Below are positions 1 through 11,077 of a DNA stretch of 11,077 nucleotides, piece after piece (within the stretch, counting starts at the first letter, position 1; the number at the start of each line of letters is the position of its first letter). Made by a program: the position numbers and the translations under genes. This stretch comes from Candidatus Zixiibacteriota bacterium (GTDB lineage Bacteria > Zixibacteria > MSB-5A5 > GN15 > JACZUZ01). Under the pieces are notes generated by a model. The model searched no databases. It was not told the origin of the DNA and was given only the letters and a program-made list of their open reading frames with translations. The DNA lies in NCBI GenBank assembly GCA_022563625.1, contig JADFNA010000021.1, forward strand, positions 1 through 11,077, read 5' to 3'.

Positions 1-2976
1 AGTCAAAGAAACCTGCGCCTTTTGCGGCAGGGAGAAATTGATTGTCGTGGCGGGATTAAACGGGTTCGGAAAATTCTGCGCCAGCGCAAATGTTTTGGGT
101 AAAATGTTCGTACGTGGATCATCATCGACATCGGTTTGAATGTCCCCGAACAGAACCCGGAAAAACTCTGTGGCTTGGTCGGGTTCAAATTCCCAGGGTT
201 CCATGAAAAACATGTAGGCCGTATGCGTCGGCGGAGAATACTTGATCCCAACGGGTCGTCCGTGAAGTTGAGAGGTTGGGTCTCGACCGCTGACATAGGT
301 GTAGAGGATTTCAGTATTTTCGGCAACGGGTATAACATAGCCCTTTAATGGAATTGGTCCGACGGAAAAATCCCGATTTGAGAATGGAACGTATAGACCT
401 GAGTGGTGATAATTTAAAGCGGGAAAGAGTGAACCGCTGACTGGCTCTGCGCCTACTGGATCGAAATAATGAAACAAGGTATCGCTACTACCGACAAGAT
501 GACTATTCCAGGTGATTGCCAATATGGTATCAATACCATAAGGGTATGCGATATGGGAGAAGATGCCAGTTCGACTAAAATGTCGTTCGAAGATAACTTT
601 TGTACCAAAAGAAGAAAGAAATGTTGATCCCCCGCCAAAGTATATGATTTTTGCGCCAGCCATCGCAATATCAACCCAGCGGACTTTCGTTGCTATTCTA
701 TCCAAAGCAGGATCATCGTACAGGATGTATTCAAATCGGGCAAGTTCTGTAAAAGTAGGACGAAACGAGTTGCTAGGGTCCAATTCCCTAGGTACAATAG
801 GAAAGAACTCAATTTCCATGTTCGGTATCATATTCCTATAGAATGTCATCATGGAATCATAACGCACCCCATGCAACTGAACACTGTCGCGCAAAATGAT
901 AGCCAGAGCCTTGTCTTTTTCCGGACTGCTCAAGACATCAAACACATCGGTAGATTGTGATTCATTTCCGGCAGAATCGACTGCAGTCATATGAAAGCTG
1001 ACTATTGTAGCGGTATCAACAGGAGGCAGGGAAAAGCTTCTGTTCGGCTCGAAAATCTCAGCAAGAGGTGGATTTCCTACGATGCACATACCAGACGAAT
1101 CTTCAAGAACCGAGTCACACAACAACACGAACGGTGATGACACGTCACATTGACGAAAAGATGTTACAAGCTCAGGCGGTACGTAAAAATTGTTCTGACC
1201 TGGCACTCTCACATAAATCTTGATCTTCTCAATATCCGGATCAATTTTCTCCCAACTGAATTCTGCTCGTCTCCCGCTAAAAAACCGCAATATGCTCTTT
1301 TGGAAAGCATCAGCGAACATTTCTTCAGATAGTTTCGGTGGATGCGGCACGCCTACGCGGACAAAAAGAGGATCAGACATGGCAGTCGATGTACCGTCCA
1401 GATTAGCCACACCGACAGCGATTGAGTACCAGCCACCATCAACGAGGTCACTCAAGACAATCGAGTCTGATTCAATGGGTGTCGCATTGTACTTGTCCTC
1501 AGGTCCAAGAGATGGCGTATCCAGCGGAGCCAACCGACAAAATACCATACTTTCCGGGACCTGCTTAACGAAAATATCATGGCCTGCGACAAGGGGACTC
1601 TGGCTGTTAACCCATTTTAGTACAGGTTGATTTTCGTTGATGTCAACGATAGTCGGCGCAGGAGGCGCCCCACAAATATCGCCTACACCGTCGAAATCAA
1701 AATCAGATTGAAGTGGATTTGGCATATTCGGACAATTGTCGCACAAATCCGGCAAGCCGTCATTATCAGTGTCGGCAGGTCCTGCGACTGTCGAGTCCTC
1801 TGATAGCTTTAGCACAAATAACGTGGAGTTCATGTTGGATACATAGATAAGCGTGTCATCCGCGGCAAAGACCCCCCACGCTCCCTGGAATGTAGGGGCA
1901 TCACTACTGGGCCAGGTATCGAAAGAGGCGAGTTCCAAAAAACATCGCGGATTGGACAAGTCCAGTACGAATACTCCTGATGTGTAATGCGAAAGATAGA
2001 CACGATTGCCTCGGAGTCTGGCATTGTGCGCTAATTCGCTCGGCCCGAGGAACTGACTGACTGGATGGACACTGTTCAAATCTTCAATGTTCCAGGCTTT
2101 GACACTTGTCCCTACCGTTTCTTCCGTTGTTACAACATGCTTTCCGTCACCGGTTGGCCAAATACTGTGTGCGTAGCCCGGATTCGGAGAGGCCCAGCGT
2201 GCCAGGAGAGTCGGATTCACCTTGTCGGCGACATCCCAGATCGAGAATGTCTCATTGTCACCCTCGGCAACATACAGGGTGTCATTCCTCGCATAGAAAT
2301 CATGGACACCCTTTTCTCCCATACGAGGCATACTTGACACAAAAACTGGGTTCAGTGGATCGGCGATATCGTGTATCAATATCGGAATACCGGCTTGGCC
2401 CTCCATGTAAAGGAATCCCCTAATCGAATCTATCGCCAGGTTGTGCGAATTATGCAGAGCGCCGCCGGCAACTTCGAAAATTGGTAGGGTCTTAACGACA
2501 TGTGCGCTGTCAGGTAAGAAACTTAAGTCTATAATCGTTATCCCGCCGCCGCATTCTGACGTGACATAACAAACATTCCCAACCGTCGCCAAATCGCGCC
2601 ATTGACAAAACTGATCAATCAGAAATGCAGTATCTACGATCTCCAGAGTCGAAACATTGATTATTCCCACACCAAAATTCATCCCCATAAGCGCATATTT
2701 GTCGCCATTGGGCGCCGTCCAGCCCCAGCAGTCACTGCCGTTGCCTGTGAAGAATTGAAAGGCGGCGACACTATCAAGCGAGTAGCGGCCGCTGAATTCA
2801 CTTGATTGCTTGACGTAAGTGTGGTTGCCGATAGCCTCTTGCGTGGGAGGCGGCTGGCCGGCTTCATCCAATCGAAAGCGGGGCATCGATTGAGGTCGGT
2901 CTGTCGGAGAGAGAGTCAATGCGCATACGAATAGTATCGATGCAAAAAATCTGCTGCTGGCGTGCGAATGAGCCAT
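1..2976 (-). CDS. Secreted mosaic protein: LVIVD/choice-of-anchor-B propeller, TSP3, Fn3, alpha/beta domain, C-terminal anchoring domain (3' end cut by window)
   Basis: One unbroken frame of 992 codons reads from ATG at 2976 to the window edge. The start is well fixed, because an in-frame TGA lies two codons upstream (2980-2982). No strong Shine-Dalgarno is seen. Residues 1-25 look like a Sec signal peptide: Arg9, then a hydrophobic run FFASILFVCALTLS. Residues about 46-392 form a propeller-like region resembling choice-of-anchor-B proteins with LVIVD-type strands (GVGIINVS, CQWRDLATVGNVCYVTSE, HNSHNLAI, GVFVLDLSNP). Residues 402-436 are a thrombospondin type 3 loop. Residues about 437-545 and 549-680 look like two Fn3-type domains. 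Residues about 686-800 look like an alpha/beta fold. Residues about 958-992 begin an FCB-type C-terminal FlgD-like/type IX-style domain, so only some tens of residues are probably missing. Export and surface attachment are inferred from the architecture. No catalytic residues are recognised and the function is unknown. It is transcribed away from the giant repeat gene. Confidence 0.93.
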   Translation of the reverse strand, partial: MAHSHASSRFFASILFVCALTLSPTDRPQSMPRFRLDEAGQPPPTQEAIGNHTYVKQSSEFSGRYSLDSVAAFQFFTGNGSDCWGWTAPNGDKYALMGMNFGVGIINVSTLEIVDTAFLIDQFCQWRDLATVGNVCYVTSECGGGITIIDLSFLPDSAHVVKTLPIFEVAGGALHNSHNLAIDSIRGFLYMEGQAGIPILIHDIADPLNPVFVSSMPRMGEKGVHDFYARNDTLYVAEGDNETFSIWDVADKVNPTLLARWASPNPGYAHSIWPTGDGKHVVTTEETVGTSVKAWNIEDLNSVHPVSQFLGPSELAHNARLRGNRVYLSHYTSGVFVLDLSNPRCFLELASFDTWPSSDAPTFQGAWGVFAADDTLIYVSNMNSTLFVLKLSEDSTVAGPADTDNDGLPDLCDNCPNMPNPLQSDFDFDGVGDICGAPPAPTIVDINENQPVLKWVNSQSPLVAGHDIFVKQVPESMVFCRLAPLDTPSLGPEDKYNATPIESDSIVLSDLVDGGWYSIAVGVANLDGTSTAMSDPLFVRVGVPHPPKLSEEMFADAFQKSILRFFSGRRAEFSWEKIDPDIEKIKIYVRVPGQNNFYVPPELVTSFRQCDVSSPFVLLCDSVLEDSSGMCIVGNPPLAEIFEPNRSFSLPPVDTATIVSFHMTAVDSAGNESQSTDVFDVLSSPEKDKALAIILRDSVQLHGVRYDSMMTFYRNMIPNMEIEFFPIVPRELDPSNSFRPTFTELARFEYILYDDPALDRIATKVRWVDIAMAGAKIIYFGGGSTFLSSFGTKVIFERHFSRTGIFSHIAYPYGIDTILAITWNSHLVGSSDTLFHYFDPVGAEPVSGSLFPALNYHHSGLYVPFSNRDFSVGPIPLKGYVIPVAENTEILYTYVSGRDPTSQLHGRPVGIKYSPPTHTAYMFFMEPWEFEPDQATEFFRVLFGDIQTDVDDDPRTNILPKTFALAQNFPNPFNPATTINFSLPQKAQVSLT
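25..90 (-). other. FCB-type C-terminal anchoring/sorting domain, beginning (FlgD-like, type IX-style)
   Basis: Residues 963-984 contain FALAQNFPNPFNPATTINF followed by SLP. The xxLxQNxPNPFNPxTxIxFxLP pattern opens the FlgD-like/type A sorting domain found at the C-terminus of exported proteins across the FCB superphylum. The preceding Asp-rich linker (DVDDDPRTN) is usual. The rest of the domain and the stop codon lie beyond position 1. Whether this organism has a type IX secretion system cannot be judged here. Confidence 0.88.
577..921 (-). other. Embedded alpha/beta domain, possibly glutamine-amidotransferase/ThuA-like (residues about 686-800)
   Basis: The flanking regions look all-beta, but this stretch alternates predicted strands and helices: KALAIILRDSV, then a helix-like segment around YDSMMTFYRNM, then IEFFPIV, ELARFEYILYDDPA, VRWVDIAMAGAKIIYFGGG. 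A strand ending in a Gly-rich turn (YFGGGS) after a helix is reminiscent of Rossmann-like or ThuA/class-I glutamine-amidotransferase-like domains. No nucleophilic Cys or clear catalytic set is visible, so a structural or binding role is as likely as an enzymatic one. The domain limits are approximate. Confidence 0.4.
1669..1773 (-). other. Thrombospondin type 3 calcium-binding repeat (residues 402-436)
   Basis: The segment begins DTDNDGLPDLCDNCPN and ends DFDFDGVGDIC. This is the classic TSP3 pattern of regularly spaced Asp residues with a Cys pair (C412, C415) and a closing Cys435. TSP3 loops bind calcium and often act as stiff linkers between the body of a surface protein and its distal domains. 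Here it joins the propeller to the Fn3-like region. Confidence 0.88.
1801..2841 (-). other. Choice-of-anchor-B / LVIVD-like beta-propeller domain (residues about 46-392)
   Basis: Repeated beta-strand motifs of the LVIVD kind are visible at protein level: GVGIINVSTLEIVD, GGITIIDLS, IPILIHDIADPLNPVFV, FSIWDVADKVNPTLLA and GVFVLDLSNPR. The order of hallmarks fits extracellular proteins called choice-of-anchor B: WRDLATVGNVCYVTSE, then LHNSHNLAID, then VHDFYARNDTLYVAEG, then YAHSIW. In that family the propeller is exported and the C-terminal anchor differs between lineages. The assignment rests on remembered family features, not an alignment. Confidence 0.7.
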
Positions 2977-3556: not shown

Positions 3557-3662
3557 TATGGGTGATTTCACATACTGTCAGTCGGACCCGGCCTGAACTT
3601 TCTGCCACCAAACATTTATGCGCCTACCGCTCACAAACAATTTCTTGTCCACGATATCTTTG

Positions 3663-3710
3663 CGGATGTCACAAAGGTTATCACTCAGGATGTCACTAAG
3701 AATGTCGCCG
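3663..3710 (+). repeat. Four tandem degenerate 12-bp repeats spanning the candidate starts
   Basis: Four consecutive 12-bp units, CGGATGTCACAA, AGGTTATCACTC, AGGATGTCACTA and AGAATGTCGCCG, read in the gene's frame as R-M/L-S-x four times. Three of them carry an in-frame ATG (3666, 3690, 3702). The array therefore multiplies possible start codons just ahead of the signal-peptide core. Confidence 0.7.
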
Positions 3711-6700
3711 AGACCTGCGCTCGTTCTCAGCGCCATCTTTGCCCTATTGGCAAGTTCAAATACATTTGCACAGCGCACCGGCGCCAGCAGTAATTCTGTC
3801 TCTCAAGACAGCGCAAAAACCGCGACCGTTTCTTTTAATCAAACCACCGCGCTTACGACAGACCGTGAAGTATATCCTCCGGAGGCGCTGGTCAATATCT
3901 ACGGTTCAGGCTATCTGCCGGGTGAGCCGGTTTCGCTGACCATTAAATACCAGGATTCTCTGTTCAATGAGGCCGGGCCGGATTTTAGTGTAAGCGCTGT
4001 GGCGGACACATCCGGCCAGTTCGAAGTGTCTTGGACCATCCCTGCGGACGGTGGCATAAGTGATACGCTCATCCTCCAAGGTTTAGGAGCGTTATCGGGA
4101 CGCATGGCCGGGACAGTTGTCCACACCGCCAACACCATATTGACTTTAACCATACTGGCGTCGGATACACTGTGTCCGGCCGGTACTGTTGGCGCCCCTG
4201 ATTCGTTTGTTGTGCGGGCGAATCTGGCCCAGTTCTGCAGCAAAGAAGTTACTGCAAATCTTGCCGGGCGCGAGATTTTGTTCTTTCTCAATCCGGGTGA
4301 TTGCGGGGTTGAGATTGCGCAGATGAGCCAGGATTCGGCGCTGACTGACGCCGACGGCAATGCGTTTGTGACTTTTGCCACACCGTCGGTCCAGGGAAAG
4401 TACTCGGTCCGGGCCAAGTTTCGCGAAGAAGCGCGCCCCAAACCATGCCCGGGGACAGGTAACAGCGCCTGTATCACAGAACCCGGCAATAGCAAACGCT
4501 GTATGAAATTATCAAAATCTAATGATTGTTTGAGATTCGTCGTGATGCAGGACGCCTGTCCGCGCCCGCCGAAACTGGTTTGTCCGCCGAATGAGCTGAT
4601 TACTTTATGCGGCCCGGCAGAAGTCTGTATTTCGCCGCTGACTGTCGATTCGCGCGCCGGCTCGGCCGTTACTATTTCGCTTTCATTCGGCGAACTGCGC
4701 GGCGATTCGATTTGCTTTCTCGCCGACACTGCAGGGGTGTATGTCATTACAGCGATTGCCATGGACAGCGACGGCAACGCCGACACCTGCCAGAGTGTCA
4801 TCACGGTCAAGTTCAACAGCCCTCCGGACATAATCGGAGGTGGACGCACCTTCAATGCCTGTTTCCCTGGCGCGTTAATCAATCATGACGTCAACGCCGT
4901 TGACCTCGACGGAGATACGCTTATCTGGTCATTGTCCTCCGGGTTTGGGGCGATTAACCAGAGCGGACTAATAACGTTCACTGCCGACACGTCCGGAACA
5001 TACTGTTTCACCGTGCGGGTTGATGATATCTGCGGATTCACTGAGGATGTTATCTGTCTGACAGTTCTGTTGGACCAGTTGCCCCGCATAAATGAATTCA
5101 TTGACACAGTCAGGGCTTGTCCGGGTGACAGCCTGTGTGTGACAGTAACCGGCTCTGATCCTGACATTGGTGATCAACTGGACATAGTCCAGCTTGGCGG
5201 GCCAGGTGTGTTTTTGATGAACACTGACACGTCAGGTGTGACCTGTTTCCAGGTTGGAGAGATCACCGGGCCGGTGACATATACTTTCACATATCGAATT
5301 ACCGACAACTGTTTGCGCGATTCATCGACTGCCGCCACACCCCGGCCGCCTATCGGGACAGTGACGGTGACTGTCATTCCGCCCCGTCCTCTCACGGTTA
5401 CACTGCCGGCGGACTTTACGAGTTCGCAATGCGCTCCCGAACAAATCTGCGTGGATGTGAGCATAACAGATCCGGACCACAATCTGGTGGCTGTCAATAC
5501 AAACTTTGGGATATACAATCCGGATGCCGGGACTGTGTGTTACACTCCGATTGGATCAGGAGTTGACACGCTGATAGTGGCGACAGTGGATTCGTGTGGC
5601 GGAGTTGCCCTTGATTCTGTCGTAATCACAGTGGTAACGGCGCCGACCGTGGCAGTCACCTGCCCGGCCGACACGAGTATTTTCATCTGCGATTCCGGTC
5701 TGGTGTGTGTGCCATTCGGGATATTCCCCGCAGGTGTCACAGTTAATTTGCGGCCGGCCTCAGCGTCGTACAATCCGGTTACCGGAGACATTTGTTTTTT
5801 CACGAACTGCTCGGTGCGCAAACAGCTCACGGTAATTGTAGATAACGGCTGTGCCGCTGACACCTGCAATTTCGTCGTTGATGTTACTCTCAACTCTTCG
5901 CCGTTTGTTATCACCCGGCCACAGCTCGAAATAGATTTGTGCCAGCCGGGAACGGTGTGCTGGCCGGCGGGCATTATTGATGTAGACGATAATATCAGAT
6001 CGATAGTCGTTACACCGGCGGGGACTTACAACTCCATCACCGGAAAGATTTGCGTTCCCGTTGACAGCTCGGTCCTCTACCGGGTGATCGTAACCGTGGC
6101 GGATTCCTGCGGCGCCGAGGGAGTTGATACGACATTTTTGAATGCGCATGTCAACAGCCCGCCGGAAATTAACGGGGGAAGTGACCTGGCGCTGTTACTC
6201 TGCGCCCCTCAGGAAGTGTGCGTTCAATTTATCGCCGGGGACATCGACGGAGCGCCGCCGCTGGTGACAACAAATATCGGCGTATATAACGGAATCTCCA
6301 ATATCATCTGCTTTGTCCCGGATACGGCCGGTGTGTATGCGATTATCGGGACCGCCACGGATAGCTGCGGCGCAACAGACGCAGACACGGTCATTGTGAC
6401 GGTAAGTTTCAACCAGCCGCCGCTTGTCATTCTGGGGGCCGATACGACAATCACGCTGTGTAACCTTTCACAACTGTGTCTGCCGGTGACTTTTCCGGCC
6501 GTCCCGGGTAATGACAACCTGCAAAGTGTCATCCCCAACACAGGGTTTTATAATCCGATCACGCGTGAAATCTGTTTCACTCCCGGCGCAGCAGGCGTTA
6601 ATGAAATTATTCTAACAGCAACCGACGCCTGCGGAGTACAGAGCGCCGATACGATCCTGATTACGATAATAGTCAACGACACCGCCAGAATAAGTTGCCC

Positions 6701-9700
6701 GGCCGGGCCGGTTGCCATCGATGTCTGCGGACAGGATTCAGTGTTCTACCCGCTGGAAATCACGCCGTCCAACGCCCGGGTTGCGGTCCAGGGAGCAAAT
6801 TATTCAGGCGGTATACTCAGCTTCGCCGCCGACACGTCCGGGACATATCTTATTCATGTCTCGGCAGCCTCTGATTGCGGCGCCGATAGCTGCGATATTG
6901 TTTTCAATGTTCGTGTCGGCGTACAAATTTCGCTGAACTGCCCGGTGGACACTTCGGTGTTTATTTGCAATTCCGGCCAGACGATCTTCATACCGGTCGG
7001 CTTGATGGTCGACAGCTCTGCGGTGACTGTCACGCCAATCGGTTCTTATCGCAATGGCTCAATCGGGTTTAGCGCCGACACGGCGGGAATCTACTCGATA
7101 ACTGTGTTAGTGGATAATGCCTGCGGGACCGCGTCATGCTCGTTCACTGTTAACACGGCAATCAACAGCGCGCCGAGTGTCCAGGTTGCCGGGAAAGCAG
7201 TCTCGCTCTGTTCAGCAGGTGAAATCGCCCTGCCCATAAGCGTCGCTGATCCGGACGGAAATATTCGTTCTGTCAGTTCAAGTATTGGGACCATTGACGG
7301 TGACACGCTTCGTTTCACGCCGCCAGGCGCCGGAGAGTTTACGGCGCTGGTTACCGTAGTTGATTCGTGCGGACTGTCAGCCGTTGACACGGCGCTTATT
7401 ACAGTTGCGATAAATACCGGACCGGCGGTTGATCTCGGCCCGGATACAGCTTTCGCACTCTGTGCGGTTGATAGTATCTGCCTTCCGGTCACTTTTACGG
7501 ATGCGGATAATAACATAGATATTTCGAGTGTCACTGTAAGCGGCGGAACTTTCGCCGCCGGCAGGGTCTGTTTCCTGCCAACCGGCAGCGGACTACATAC
7601 CATTATACTGAGTGTAAGTGATTCCTGCGGGGCGGCCGCCAGAGATACTGTGGTAATCGACGTTGACATCAATGCGGCGCCTGTCGTAACACTGGCCGGG
7701 CCGGGCGACACCTCGCTCTGTGCGCCGGCATCTATCTGCCTGGCAGGGACGGTCTCGGATAATAACCTGCAGAGTGTTACATCTGTCGGCGGAGCATTTG
7801 TTAACGGAAGCATTTGCTTTACGCCGGATACCTCGGGCGCTTACACGTTTGTGTTGAGCGCCACGGATTCCTGCGGGGTAACGGTCAGTGACACGGAAAT
7901 TGTGAATGTATTTCTCAACCTTCCGCCTGTCGTGGCCGGTCCGCAGGATACCCTCGTTACTGTCTGTGACGCCGGCACAATCTGTTTCGCCCTTGACGCA
8001 ACAGACCCCGACGACAACATATTGTCTATTATAGCATCAGGCGCGCGGAACGCGCTGTACTCAAACGGAACTGTATGTTTTGACCCCGACAGCTCGGGAG
8101 TCTATGCGATTGTAATACTCGCAACCGATAGTTGCGGGCAAACAGGCTCCGACACCGTTAACGTAACAGTCATCACTAACTCTGCGCCGCGGGCCAGTTT
8201 CGCCTCTGATTCGCTGGTCGTGCAGTGTGTCACAGATTCGGTCTGTATTCCTGTGGCAATCTCCGATACTGACGGCAATATCGCGGCGGTAACTGTCCTC
8301 GGCGGCTCATTTAACGAACAAACCGGAAATGTCTGTTTCCTGCCGACAACCAGCGGTGTATTTGTCATTTCACTGTCGGTGATAGATTCCTGTGGACTGT
8401 CAGCGGCGGATTCTCTGTTCGTAAGTGTCAATCTTGGCGAAGTTGTCACGCTTGTCTGTCCGTCCGACACGGCGCTGTTTATCTGCGAGCCGGATACCCT
8501 GTGTTTTCCGATCAGCGGGGTCCCGGCCGGAGCGGAGATAGTTGTCTCGCCGAATTCAGGCTGGTACGACGAAGCGTCCCGACAAATATGCTTCTACACC
8601 AATTGTTCGGTAGTCAAGAACCTGAGCATAGTTGTCACCAACGGATGTTTCGTAGATTCATGCGCGTTTGTGGTGAATGTGACAATGAATTCTCCGCCGC
8701 TGGTGATCGCCGCGCCGGATACCGGCGCAGTATTGTGCGGTCTGCAAGATGTCTGTTTGCCGGTCGGGATATCTGATGCTGATGACAACCTCAGCCAGGT
8801 GATTGTCGAGCCGTTCGGATCATACAATCCAATAACCGGGCTGGCATGCATTCCGATTGACTCAAGCGGATTGTATCTGATTACAATCACCGCCATAGAC
8901 TCATGCGGGGCGCGCGGAGTGGATTCAGTAATCATAAACGCCGCGGTGAATCGTGCGCCGAATGTATCGTTCGGCGCAGACTCGGCGCTGTTCCTTTGTC
9001 GGCCCCAGGAGATATGCATACCGGTATCAGTCGGCGATCCGGACAATAATATCTTCATGGTTGCAAATTCGCTCGGTGTGTACGACAATCTGGCGGGCGC
9101 TGTCTGTTTCACTCCCGGAGATTCAAGCGCTGTGTATCGCCTGATTGTCACGGCAGTGGACTCCTGCGGACTCGTGAATGCCGACACTGTGTTTGTCGCT
9201 GTCAGTATTAATTCTGCCCCGACGCTAACGCTTGCAGCAGATACATCAGTGTTTCTGTGCAAGGTCGGTGAAGTATGCATCCCGGTTTCTGTGATGGACA
9301 TTGATGGGAACTTTCTTGGAATCACGACCAGCCCGGGGGCAAGTTACGACGAACTGACCGGTGAGGTTTGCTTTATCGCCGCCGCCAGCGTCGTGATACC
9401 AATCACCGTGACTGCGCTTGACTCATGCGGGGCGTTCGTCAGCAAAACTATAAATATCGACGTAACAATTAACAGCCCCCCGAGGGTAGTCGCTGCTGCA
9501 GACACGGTTGTCAGCGGCTGCGGCATTTCTGAAGTATGTTTTCCGGTAGGAATTTCAGATGCAGATGATAACATTGCCGGGGTTAGCGTCCTGCCGTTCG
9601 GGTCATATAATCCGATCTCCGGCCTGGTGTGTTTGACTCCGGCCGATACCGGCGCAATCGCTGTCATCATCTCAGTAGTTGATAGCTGCGGACTGATCGG

Positions 9701-11077
9701 CGCTGACACTACTATGGTGGTGGTCACCATCGGCCCTGATGTCAGCATCGAGTGCCCGCTGGTCCCGTTCAATGTCTCACTCTGCGGGCCGGATACGGTC
9801 CGCCAGATGATCACGGTCAACCCTCCGGACGCGCAGGTAACAACAACATTTGGCGAATATGCCAACGGCCAGCTCGTGTTTTTTGCCGATACTGCCGGAA
9901 CATATCAGATCAGCCTGATTGCGCAGGGCGGCTGCGGCGTGGACACCTGCCTGCTGACGTTCGTGGTCATCCAGGGCCAGGTCCCGAAATTCAACTGCCC
10001 GGCCGACACCAGTATATTCCTGTGTGCGCCCGCCGAAATCTGCCGCCCGGTTGGCGTTTTGCCCGACGGCGCCAATGTGACAATTTTACCGGCCGGGCGC
10101 TATCAAGCCGGTATGGTTTGTTTTGACGCAGACACAACCGGCCGCTATGTCATCACCGCTCTGGCGCAGACCGCGTGCGGAAACGATTCGTGCACGTTTA
10201 CTGTTGATGTGACAATCAACAGCGCACCGTTTGTAACATCCCTGGCCGATACCAGTGCGCTTATGTGCGATTTGCCGGGCGTTCAAATTTGCCGTTTTGC
10301 GCCGGTGAGTGATGTCAATGGAAACTTGCTAAAAGTTAATGTACCGGCATTCGCCACTTATGACGCCTCGGGGCAAATATGTTTCACCCCAGACACGGCA
10401 GGGACCTATCGTTTGTTTGTCGAAGCTGTAGATTCATGCGGAGTGCGGGTGGCAGATACATTTTTGGTGGAAATACTCTCTGTCGCTCCGGCGCTGATAA
10501 TCTGCCCGGACACGGTGGCTTTCGAGTTTTGTTTTGACATCACACAGCGCTTCGGGCTGGACATTACCCCCGCTGAAGCGATTGTCTCTGCGACAGGTGG
10601 TACACTGCTAGGCGCCGATTCGATTGGCCTCTTCTTCGATACCAGCGGTGTGTATACATCGCAAATTATCGCCGCGACTGATTGTGGCGCCGACACCTGT
10701 GAGTTCGTAGTCAAGGCCGTCCGTTTGCCGCTGCCGACTATCACCTGCCCGGCTGATCAGAATCTTTTCCTCTGCGCGCCGGATACGCTGTGCCTGCCGT
10801 TTAGCTTCTCGCCGCCCCCGGCGTTCGTATCAGTCAGCGCCCCGGCATTTATATCCGGTGATTCTGTCTGCATACCGCTCTTGAATGACACGACACTGAC
10901 AGTTACCCTCACCTCGGCTGTTAGCTGCGCCCAGTCGAGCTGCTCGTTCACGGTCACGGCAGAGGTAAACGAAGCGCCGGTAGTTACCTTAGGGCCTGAC
11001 TTCAGCGTCTTGCAGTGCGGAGTTGATTCGGTTTGTATTCCGGTTTCAATCAGTGACGATGAAAACAATGTCAAGTC
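3690..11077 (+). CDS. Giant secreted Ig/cadherin-like repeat protein, cysteine-rich (3' end cut by window)
   Basis: A single frame stays open from the TGA at 3594 to the window edge, giving 2462 complete codons from the ATG at 3690. That start gives a compact signal peptide: Arg4 and Arg8, hydrophobic core ALVLSAIFALLA, and signal peptidase site TFA|Q after residue 27. ATGs at 3618, 3666 and 3702 are alternatives, and no strong Shine-Dalgarno decides between them. Residues about 58-150 and 158-285 are two Ig-like domains. From residue 293 to the end there are 25 complete repeats plus one partial repeat of about 80-102 residues. Typical units read like NSAPVV...DTS.FLC...ICIPV.ISDADNN...G.YN..TG.VCFTPDTSG.Y.I...DSCG...DTV.VTV. 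The build resembles tandem-95/cadherin-like bacterial repeats, with added cysteines. Acidic loops suggest calcium binding. An adhesin, filament or matrix role is inferred; no catalytic domain is seen. No C-terminal anchor is visible because the end is missing. Confidence 0.93.
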   Translation, partial: MSLRMSPRPALVLSAIFALLASSNTFAQRTGASSNSVSQDSAKTATVSFNQTTALTTDREVYPPEALVNIYGSGYLPGEPVSLTIKYQDSLFNEAGPDFSVSAVADTSGQFEVSWTIPADGGISDTLILQGLGALSGRMAGTVVHTANTILTLTILASDTLCPAGTVGAPDSFVVRANLAQFCSKEVTANLAGREILFFLNPGDCGVEIAQMSQDSALTDADGNAFVTFATPSVQGKYSVRAKFREEARPKPCPGTGNSACITEPGNSKRCMKLSKSNDCLRFVVMQDACPRPPKLVCPPNELITLCGPAEVCISPLTVDSRAGSAVTISLSFGELRGDSICFLADTAGVYVITAIAMDSDGNADTCQSVITVKFNSPPDIIGGGRTFNACFPGALINHDVNAVDLDGDTLIWSLSSGFGAINQSGLITFTADTSGTYCFTVRVDDICGFTEDVICLTVLLDQLPRINEFIDTVRACPGDSLCVTVTGSDPDIGDQLDIVQLGGPGVFLMNTDTSGVTCFQVGEITGPVTYTFTYRITDNCLRDSSTAATPRPPIGTVTVTVIPPRPLTVTLPADFTSSQCAPEQICVDVSITDPDHNLVAVNTNFGIYNPDAGTVCYTPIGSGVDTLIVATVDSCGGVALDSVVITVVTAPTVAVTCPADTSIFICDSGLVCVPFGIFPAGVTVNLRPASASYNPVTGDICFFTNCSVRKQLTVIVDNGCAADTCNFVVDVTLNSSPFVITRPQLEIDLCQPGTVCWPAGIIDVDDNIRSIVVTPAGTYNSITGKICVPVDSSVLYRVIVTVADSCGAEGVDTTFLNAHVNSPPEINGGSDLALLLCAPQEVCVQFIAGDIDGAPPLVTTNIGVYNGISNIICFVPDTAGVYAIIGTATDSCGATDADTVIVTVSFNQPPLVILGADTTITLCNLSQLCLPVTFPAVPGNDNLQSVIPNTGFYNPITREICFTPGAAGVNEIILTATDACGVQSADTILITIIVNDTARISCPAGPVAIDVCGQDSVFYPLEITPSNARVAVQGANYSGGILSFAADTSGTYLIHVSAASDCGADSCDIVFNVRVGVQISLNCPVDTSVFICNSGQTIFIPVGLMVDSSAVTVTPIGSYRNGSIGFSADTAGIYSITVLVDNACGTASCSFTVNTAINSAPSVQVAGKAVSLCSAGEIALPISVADPDGNIRSVSSSIGTIDGDTLRFTPPGAGEFTALVTVVDSCGLSAVDTALITVAINTGPAVDLGPDTAFALCAVDSICLPVTFTDADNNIDISSVTVSGGTFAAGRVCFLPTGSGLHTIILSVSDSCGAAARDTVVIDVDINAAPVVTLAGPGDTSLCAPASICLAGTVSDNNLQSVTSVGGAFVNGSICFTPDTSGAYTFVLSATDSCGVTVSDTEIVNVFLNLPPVVAGPQDTLVTVCDAGTICFALDATDPDDNILSIIASGARNALYSNGTVCFDPDSSGVYAIVILATDSCGQTGSDTVNVTVITNSAPRASFASDSLVVQCVTDSVCIPVAISDTDGNIAAVTVLGGSFNEQTGNVCFLPTTSGVFVISLSVIDSCGLSAADSLFVSVNLGEVVTLVCPSDTALFICEPDTLCFPISGVPAGAEIVVSPNSGWYDEASRQICFYTNCSVVKNLSIVVTNGCFVDSCAFVVNVTMNSPPLVIAAPDTGAVLCGLQDVCLPVGISDADDNLSQVIVEPFGSYNPITGLACIPIDSSGLYLITITAIDSCGARGVDSVIINAAVNRAPNVSFGADSALFLCRPQEICIPVSVGDPDNNIFMVANSLGVYDNLAGAVCFTPGDSSAVYRLIVTAVDSCGLVNADTVFVAVSINSAPTLTLAADTSVFLCKVGEVCIPVSVMDIDGNFLGITTSPGASYDELTGEVCFIAAASVVIPITVTALDSCGAFVSKTINIDVTINSPPRVVAAADTVVSGCGISEVCFPVGISDADDNIAGVSVLPFGSYNPISGLVCLTPADTGAIAVIISVVDSCGLIGADTTMVVVTIGPDVSIECPLVPFNVSLCGPDTVRQMITVNPPDAQVTTTFGEYANGQLVFFADTAGTYQISLIAQGGCGVDTCLLTFVVIQGQVPKFNCPADTSIFLCAPAEICRPVGVLPDGANVTILPAGRYQAGMVCFDADTTGRYVITALAQTACGNDSCTFTVDVTINSAPFVTSLADTSALMCDLPGVQICRFAPVSDVNGNLLKVNVPAFATYDASGQICFTPDTAGTYRLFVEAVDSCGVRVADTFLVEILSVAPALIICPDTVAFEFCFDITQRFGLDITPAEAIVSATGGTLLGADSIGLFFDTSGVYTSQIIAATDCGADTCEFVVKAVRLPLPTITCPADQNLFLCAPDTLCLPFSFSPPPAFVSVSAPAFISGDSVCIPLLNDTTLTVTLTSAVSCAQSSCSFTVTAEVNEAPVVTLGPDFSVLQCGVDSVCIPVSISDDENNVK
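3861..4565 (+). other. Two N-terminal Ig-like domains of the giant protein
   Basis: The first domain (residues about 58-150) contains DREVYPPEALVNIYGSGYLP followed by GEPVSL, then DTSGQFEVSW and DTLILQGLGALSG. This is the pattern of bacterial Ig-like domains that open with Y-x-P-x-E-x-V-x-I-x-G-S-G-[YF]-x-P-G-E. The second (residues about 158-285) contains GREILFFLNP, TDADGNAFVTFATPSVQGKY and SVRAKF, the invasin/Big-type pattern of an A-x-V-x-F strand and a TDA-x-G-x-A turn. It also carries a Cys-rich, Lys-containing insertion (PCPGTGNSACITE...KRCMKL...DCLRFVV). These domains differ from the downstream array and probably form a distinct N-terminal tip or base. Confidence 0.65.
5643..7169 (+). 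repeat. Higher-order repeat block, copy 1 (R5-R10)
   Basis: Order of subtypes: B with the TNCS signature (R5), A, A, A, then a B1-B2 pair (R9, R10). Specific shared features with copy 2: R5 has ICFFTNCSVRK and FVVDVTLNS. R6 has VDSS.LY, DSCGAEGVD and NAHVNS. R7 has CAPQEVC, IGVY and ADTVIVTVS. R9 has a P..A.V loop, ADTSGTY and CGADSC. R10 has NCPVDTS.F.C and SCSFTV. These details go beyond the general consensus and match unit by unit with the downstream block. Confidence 0.7.
8442..10223 (+). repeat. Higher-order repeat block, copy 2 (R16-R22, one extra unit)
   Basis: R16 matches R5 (ICFYTNCSVVK, FVVNVTMNS). R17 matches R6 (IDSSGLY, DSCGARGVD, NAAVNR). R18 matches R7 (CRPQEIC, LGVY, ADTVFVAVS). 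R19 aligns more loosely with R8. R21 matches R9 (ADTAGTY, CGVDTC, CG.D.V start). R22 matches R10 (NCPADTSIFLC, PVG, SCTFTV). R20 has no counterpart in copy 1 and is closest to R17, so it looks like a unit inserted after the block duplicated. Confidence 0.7.
10485..10973 (+). repeat. Third B1-B2 repeat pair (R24-R25)
   Basis: R24 shares the B1 signature of R9 and R21: ICP start, ITPAEA loop, DTSGVY, TDCGADTC, and no cysteine at the two middle positions. R25 shares the B2 signature of R10 and R22: TCPAD...FLCAP and SCSFTV. B1 is always followed by B2 in this window (R9-R10, R21-R22, R24-R25), so the pair behaves as a duplicating module. It is followed by a type A unit (R26) cut by the window edge. 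Confidence 0.65.

Follow-up and report, generated by a model that had tools for sequence, protein, structure and literature searches.

A giant, probably secreted T9SS-type surface protein of a Zixibacteria species as a putative disulfide-stapled, cadherin/RTX-like rod

The giant repeat protein described here is, in our assessment, very likely a secreted T9SS-type surface protein of a Zixibacteria species, built as a disulfide-stapled rod of the cadherin/RTX-like kind. In most of its units, a cysteine in strand B (C2) would be bonded to one in the neighboring strand E (C3). At nearly every junction, a second bond would connect C1, at the bottom of unit i, with C4, at the top of unit i+1, thus stapling consecutive units covalently. 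The junctions would also follow a second code; that is, each tends toward either a cluster of Asp and Asn residues (the linker Asn of unit i, with the DxD motif and the Asp of the DSCG motif of unit i+1), a probable binding site for calcium or another metal, or, where a unit lacks the cluster, a C0-C5 bond that would tie the first segment to strand G. Because a bond within the unit would be combined with a bond from unit to unit, the chain as a whole probably forms a welded rod. Exported probably by the T9SS, the protein would project from the cell in this covalently reinforced form, and might serve in adhesion.

The window, i.e., the whole stretch of 11,077 nucleotides that was analyzed, is an entire contig (G000:C409) of a genome of 2.46 Mb in 522 contigs, 68% complete. 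Its giant ORF consists of a leader resembling a signal peptide, an N-terminal region, 25 complete units (R1-R25) and the start of R26, and encodes 119 Cys (Table 1). The units are about 85 residues long (range 81-97 aa in the alignment of R1-R25). The initial annotation of this DNA had placed the start of the repeats at position 4566; our alignment cuts the first complete unit at 4560. A 12-base tandem repeat at window positions 3664-3706, encoding LRMS-like copies, lengthens the n-region of the signal peptide, and the true start of the ORF may be a Met downstream of the first one. A divergent neighboring ORF (window 1-2976, minus strand), open at the contig edge, encodes a choice-of-anchor B protein (TIGR04312, 157.3 bits against a cut-off of 100) with an additional weak match to thrombospondin type 3.

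Table 1. Features of the giant repeat protein and their positions in the window.
Feature	Position	Strand	Description	Basis
Giant repeat protein ORF	3618..11075	+	2486 aa, no stop up to the contig end (3' truncated)	
Leader resembling a Sec signal peptide	3618..3773	+	aa 1-52, ...TFAQ	Judged by eye from the translation
R1-R25	4560..10985	+	25 complete cadherin/PKD-like units, aa 315-2456	Alignment; AF2 models of R17-R20 and R20-R23
R1	4560..4829	+	First unit; C1 present, C4 absent (DSDG in place of DSCG)	Alignment
R2	4830..5090	+	Without C2 and C3; private Cys pair in strands F and G (HMM columns 58 and 76)	Alignment
R5	5655..5906	+	Lone extra Cys C6 (TNCS) plus C0-C5	Alignment
R9, R10, R11	6690..7427	+	Consecutive trio without C2 and C3; C0-C5 in R9 and R10	Alignment
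R16	8451..8705	+	Second C6 unit (TNCS), 11 units past R5	Alignment
R17-R20	8706..9746	+	Four-unit rod, modeled	AF2, mean pLDDT 96.8, pTM 0.76
R21	9747..9992	+	Without C2 and C3; C0-C5 present	Alignment; AF2 model of R20-R23
R24	10497..10742	+	Without C2 and C3; C0-C5 present	Alignment
R26	10986..11077	+	Partial, ended by the contig edge; C1 and C2 present	Translation

In the AF2 models of R17-R20 and R20-R23 (mean pLDDT 96.2 for the latter), the units are seven-strand sandwiches arranged in tandem end to end, as in cadherin, and Foldseek matches of the modeled rod include tandems of cadherin and of RTX extender domains. Two Pfam profiles, PF22352 (33.7 bits against a cut-off of 27) and PF17963 (30.2 against 23.6), exceed the cut-off for the whole protein, with scores that are sums over many weak units. 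These profiles represent the Big_9 and K319L-like PKD families, of which, to our knowledge, the Cys pairs are not part. The cadherin profile PF00028 scored below its cut-off (14.2 against 28.8 bits), and the linker between units reads N.PP in the column table, not the DXNDN of cadherins. No RTX nonapeptide repeat family was among the Pfam matches at E 0.01 in two relatives (L029 and L031).

Matches to the window protein were obtained in 56 of the 60 related genomes (E 0.001), and a four-unit profile, at E 1e-10, detected one in 120 of the phylum's 132 genomes, its own genome counted. The titles of 26 named related loci read Zixibacteria in 22 cases, Calditrichaeota and Ignavibacterium in one each, and 'bacterium' in two. 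Our sample comprises 70 proteins with 1,496 units, all from the same class (Zixibacteria), in three sets: a first set of 33 proteins (809 units), the window's protein among them; a held-out class set of 16 proteins (180 units) from other orders of the class; and a held-out order set of 21 proteins (507 units) from the window's own order. Held-out units were aligned to a profile built prior to their retrieval. Seven duplicates and seven ORFs with three units or fewer were dropped from the 26 named-locus ORFs, as were six duplicates from the 43 held-out ORFs with at least five units. Pair tables exclude any cell in which one or both of the columns have a gap, as well as neighbors more than 12 residues apart, and an alignment, A3, of 1,085 columns, apparently shifted by whole units, was left out of the results. 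In one relative (L105, G038:C86), a single in-frame TAA splits the repeat ORF, and may be a sequencing error or real.

The initial annotation held that the Cys of the VC.P motif (C2) and that of the VCF.P motif (C3) are both present or both absent in each unit, and attributed this to a disulfide within the repeat, gained or lost as a pair. Tabulation of the Cys columns bears the co-occurrence out: both residues are found in 19 of the 25 complete units, neither in R2, R9, R10, R11, R21 and R24, and no unit holds just one. Were the six units lacking C3 a random draw, they would be identical to the six lacking C2 with a chance of 1/177,100, or 5.6e-6, a figure that ignores descent. The same pairing holds in homologues, where 1,450 of the 1,459 scorable units from the 70 proteins have both or neither. 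Both, neither and mismatched units number 638, 150 and 5 (of 793) in the first set, 151, 20 and 2 (of 173) in the class set, and 436, 55 and 2 (of 493) in the order set. Units with one Cys only, which the initial annotation took as counterevidence to its proposal, are thus absent from the window, but a handful exist in relatives. Unit 11 of L029 and L030 represents a single orthologous event, unit 1 of L088 and L089 a further one, and unit 20 of L121 is a real exception; unit 3 of L071 sits in a divergent stretch, unit 18 of L068 has C2 shifted by one column, and in unit 2 of both L047 and L108 the alignment ended short.

When C3 was taken from a neighboring unit as a control, the association with C2 was gone in the first set (p 0.31 and 0.17) and in the order set (p 0.67); the class set retained a weak association of C2(i) with C3(i+1) (p 0.005). 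On a tree of 787 units for which the Cys columns were masked, C2 changes 56 times and C3 54 times by Fitch parsimony, and 52 of these changes coincide in branch and direction (46 losses and 6 gains). In the AF2 models of R17-R20, and also in those of R22 and R23, C2 belongs to strand B and C3 to strand E, and a direct-coupling analysis of 1,331 unit pairs reveals an antiparallel ladder between these strands, formed by column pairs 18-48 (z 29.5), 16-50 (z 3.9) and 20-46 (z 3.1). The pairs 18-48, 58-76 and 3-73 have the strongest couplings of all. The proposal of a bond gained or lost as a pair is thus backed by the 70 proteins, the tree, the strand positions and the couplings, and we regard an intra-unit B-E disulfide from C2 to C3 as well supported, though not proven.

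The picture of a single pair was nevertheless incomplete. At least three Cys pairs co-vary, and the most conserved of them, overlooked in the initial annotation, joins neighboring units. C1 is present in all 25 window units and C4 in 24, R1 being the exception. In each modeled unit of R17-R20, C1 sits in the A-B turn and C4, of the DSCG motif, in the F-G turn. In a fold of this kind, these turns lie at opposite ends of the unit, A-B at the bottom and F-G at the top; a C1-C4 staple would therefore be placed at the junction. Pooled over the three sets, C1(i) and C4(i+1) are concordant in 1,308 of 1,313 scored junctions: 717 with both, 5 with neither and 1 mismatched in the first set (of 723), 135, 1 and 3 in the class set (of 139), and 447, 3 and 1 in the order set (of 451). 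This column pair is also the top coupling among 7,396 inter-unit pairs (z 16.1). Pairing with the second neighbor, C1(i)-C4(i+2), was discarded, as the 724 such pairs of the first set included no joint loss. A disulfide staple from C1(i) to C4(i+1) is what these sequence patterns predict.

The exceptions are few. In the 14 units that have a residue other than Cys at C1 and are followed by another unit, the next unit lacks C4 in 10 cases and keeps it in four (L111, L088, L089 and L084). Those of L111 (unit 20) and of L088 and L089 (unit 9, one event) are true exceptions, and the alignment of L084 seems to have shifted the Cys. Conversely, 10 of the 13 internal units scored without C4 come after a C1-less unit; the others are unit 2 of L035, where the Cys is one column on, unit 3 of L045, which is 208 residues away from the detected unit before it, and unit 18 of L068, whose preceding unit has a gap at C1. 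One joint loss (L118) is missing from the pair tables because the gap to its neighbor is 14 residues. Grouped by identity, the 10 joint losses stem from only about four lineages, and the counts are not independent. As L111 is 61% identical to L071, that lineage contains both a joint and a single loss.

The ends of the chains follow a related tendency. Among the 58 first detected units that start at residue 40 or later (12 of the 70 proteins begin earlier and were excluded), 41 have C1 without C4, 15 have both, and 2 have a gap. The lack of C4 in R1 would be expected if C4 bonds to a preceding unit. In 14 of the 15 first units with C4, some Cys is found within the 120 residues upstream (L032 is masked there); this is no proof of a partner for C4, because a Cys-rich stretch likewise precedes R1 of the window. 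Of the 62 last units that are trailed by over 150 residues, 40 have C1, 16 lack it and 6 have a gap. The number of Cys before the GGFD-like motif of the next domain is one in 14 and two in 2 of the 16 C1-less last units, two in 4 and three in 34 of the 38 with C1, and one in 3 and three in 2 of the 5 with a gap; these counts track clades and are not independent events. The motif was not found after the last unit in 11 of the 70 proteins.

A third pair, likewise overlooked in the initial annotation, is formed by C0 and C5, which co-occur perfectly in the same 9 of the 25 window units. Within units, both, neither and mismatched number 270, 345 and 1 in the first set (of 616), 10, 105 and 1 in the class set (of 116), and 123, 233 and 0 in the order set (of 356). 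Parsimony is weaker here than for C2 and C3, with 25 and 17 changes, 16 of them together, with gaps at C0 counted as losses. As a control, C0 and C5 of adjacent units also associate in the first set (p 0.005 and 0.028); this association, and that of C2 and C3 between neighbors, presumably arises because unit types cluster along the chain. C5 is linked to the composition of the junction, defined by Asn or Asp at column 82 of unit i and Asp at columns 25 and 65 of unit i+1, and scored where column 82 has a letter. The full cluster is found in 821 of 948 junctions without C5 versus 41 of 320 with C5, and all three residues are absent from 219 of the 320 C5 junctions versus 18 of the 948 C5-less ones. 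Column 82(i) with 25(i+1) (z 14.1) and with 65(i+1) (z 8.1) are the next inter-unit couplings after C1-C4, none of them involving Cys, and columns 25 and 65 couple as well. Calcium is bound in cadherins by the linker, DXD and XDX-TOP motifs (PMC5120219); by our own reasoning, columns 82, 25 and 65 would correspond to these motifs in place. A metal would likely be bound at junctions with the Asp/Asn cluster, because these columns couple and their presumed cadherin counterparts bind calcium.

Could all disulfides instead lie within units, C2 with C3 and C1 with C4 of the same unit, leaving the units without covalent links? Nearly every unit has both C1 and C4, and most therefore look self-sufficient. 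However, within a unit C1 and C4 are never lost jointly (0 of 785, 0 of 170 and 0 of 491 units in the first, class and order sets; 1,446 in total) and are mismatched in 36, 16 and 33 units, respectively (85 in total), whereas C1(i) and C4(i+1) are jointly lost in 9 of 1,313 junctions, with only 5 mismatches. The within-unit C1-C4 coupling ranks about 245th of 3,321 (z 1.05). The 41 first units that keep C1 and lack C4, and the location of the modeled turns at opposite ends of the fold, also speak against this arrangement. On the loss pattern, the mismatches and the couplings we reject a C1-C4 bond within the unit, and we consider a chain held by intra-unit bonds alone very unlikely. Bonds between separate chains, giving a covalent mat or fiber rather than a single stapled rod, could in our reasoning produce the same i/i+1 rule if parallel chains were one unit out of step; this appears extremely unlikely to us, as the couplings of column 82(i) with 25 and 65(i+1) bring the linker together with the top of the following unit at one junction, and C4 tends to be missing from first units.

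That the cysteines are ligands of a metal or cofactor, or free thiols, seems very unlikely. It is true that no more than 3 of 21 genomes have the usual oxidase profiles over cut-off, and low-oxygen habitats are possible for Zixibacteria. Against this, C2 and C3 are in register on neighboring strands, an orthologue has an export domain, a pair that changes jointly on 52 branches behaves as a disulfide would, and no column of the column table has His as one of its three most frequent residues. We give next to no credence to the pairing being an accident of descent, in which a small number of repeat subfamilies, some having the Cys and some lacking them, were copied. Kindred units do agree in their states (R9, R21 and R24 resemble one another), but common descent alone does not account for C2 and C3 changing together 52 times on a tree made without the Cys columns, and the rule holds in held-out proteins of other orders.

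If the chain is indeed a disulfide-stapled rod, it has partial counterparts among known systems. Cadherin repeats (protocadherin-19, 6pgw; CELSR1, 7sz8) share the fold of these units but differ at the linker, with DXNDN there and, here, N.PP plus the Cys pair predicted to join units. The best Foldseek match is to RTX adhesin extenders (AhLap, 6xi1; MpAFP, 4p99; E 1.5e-14). RTX stalks are likewise long bacterial sandwich stalks with stiff linkers, which contain calcium, and the word 'disulfide' has no occurrence in the text available from PMC7493085; the present proteins differ in carrying a T9SS-type tail. A disulfide from repeat to repeat also occurs in the Helicobacter Hcp/Sel1-like repeat proteins (excerpts of PMC3851747), although these are alpha-helical solenoids of unrelated fold. 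In titin, also a giant tandem protein, a variable Cys content per domain tunes the mechanics of the I-band Ig domains; the bonds in the available portion of PMC5766482 are, in contrast, intradomain, among strands B, F and G, and none between domains is mentioned there. Among the literature matches listed, in which few subscription papers are covered, we recognized no account of this family or of a disulfide-stapled cadherin-like bacterial stalk. Calcium at the linkers keeps cadherin and RTX-adhesin stalks straight, as stated in parts of PMC5120219 and PMC7493085. A disulfide staple at the junction, if real, would be a calcium-independent, redox-dependent solution to the same problem, legible from sequence, and the repeats provide a clean natural experiment, with some 50 coincident gains or losses of one pair on the tree, a tendency at the start of the chain and a choice of two codes at the junctions.

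The window ORF is cut before its C-terminus, but full-length orthologues have a T9SS-type sorting domain at their end; one is L029, whose C-terminus carries a T9SS type A sorting domain (TIGR04183, 32.5 bits against a cut-off of 23); export by the T9SS is probable for this reason. Stretches in orthologue C-termini that look cohesin-like or dockerin-like by eye received no Pfam support at E 0.01. The translocon component SprA exceeds its cut-off in 19 of 21 genomes, but the genome of the window, 68% complete, gave no match; in that genome, the PorU sortase had 26 matches, none over cut-off, and 25 of these fell within the C-terminal portion of the model. The view of the initial annotation that the protein must fold in an oxidizing compartment is reasonable given the signal-peptide-like leader and the orthologue's sorting domain, but the usual oxidases are sparse: over cut-off in the 21 genomes are VKOR in 2, DsbB in 0, DsbA in 3 and Thioredoxin_4 in 3, all in G005, G006 and G018. 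In the other 18, no DsbA, DsbB or VKOR profile exceeds its cut-off, even though the repeat proteins contain some 100 Cys each; the window's own genome has one Thioredoxin_4 match slightly below. None of the four is over cut-off in G001 (97% complete) and G003 (96%), whose orthologues have 29 detected units. The disulfides described in the available text of a Flavobacterium study (PMC12635249) are between parts of the T9SS machine, not in its cargo. We are evenly divided on a broader proposal, namely that giant T9SS-type surface rods occur throughout the phylum, with a disulfide weld between cadherin-like units at the place where calcium sits in cadherins and RTX adhesins and with a second code at each junction (the Asp/Asn metal cluster or the C0-C5 disulfide), and in most species form without DsbA, DsbB or VKOR; if true, this would imply an oxidation route of unknown kind. 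How disulfides are made in an exported protein of 119 Cys, in a lineage mostly without the usual oxidases, thus becomes a testable question.

Beyond C2 and C3, the window units have seven Cys columns: C0, C1, C4, C5, C6 and two found in R2 only. C6 is a lone Cys in a conserved TNCS loop, encoded at window positions 5808-5810 (R5) and 8604-8606 (R16). A search for its partner found no companion Cys in 27 units; in other lineages, the companion is at linker column 81 in 11 units, and a vicinal Cys in 8. Per protein (n=21), C6 occurs in two units in 15 cases, in one unit in 4 and in none in 2, and where there are two, they stand 9 to 19 units apart. Columns 37 and 60 hold the sole two extra Cys in 24 of 809 units, mostly the last unit of the protein, e.g., unit 29 of L029.
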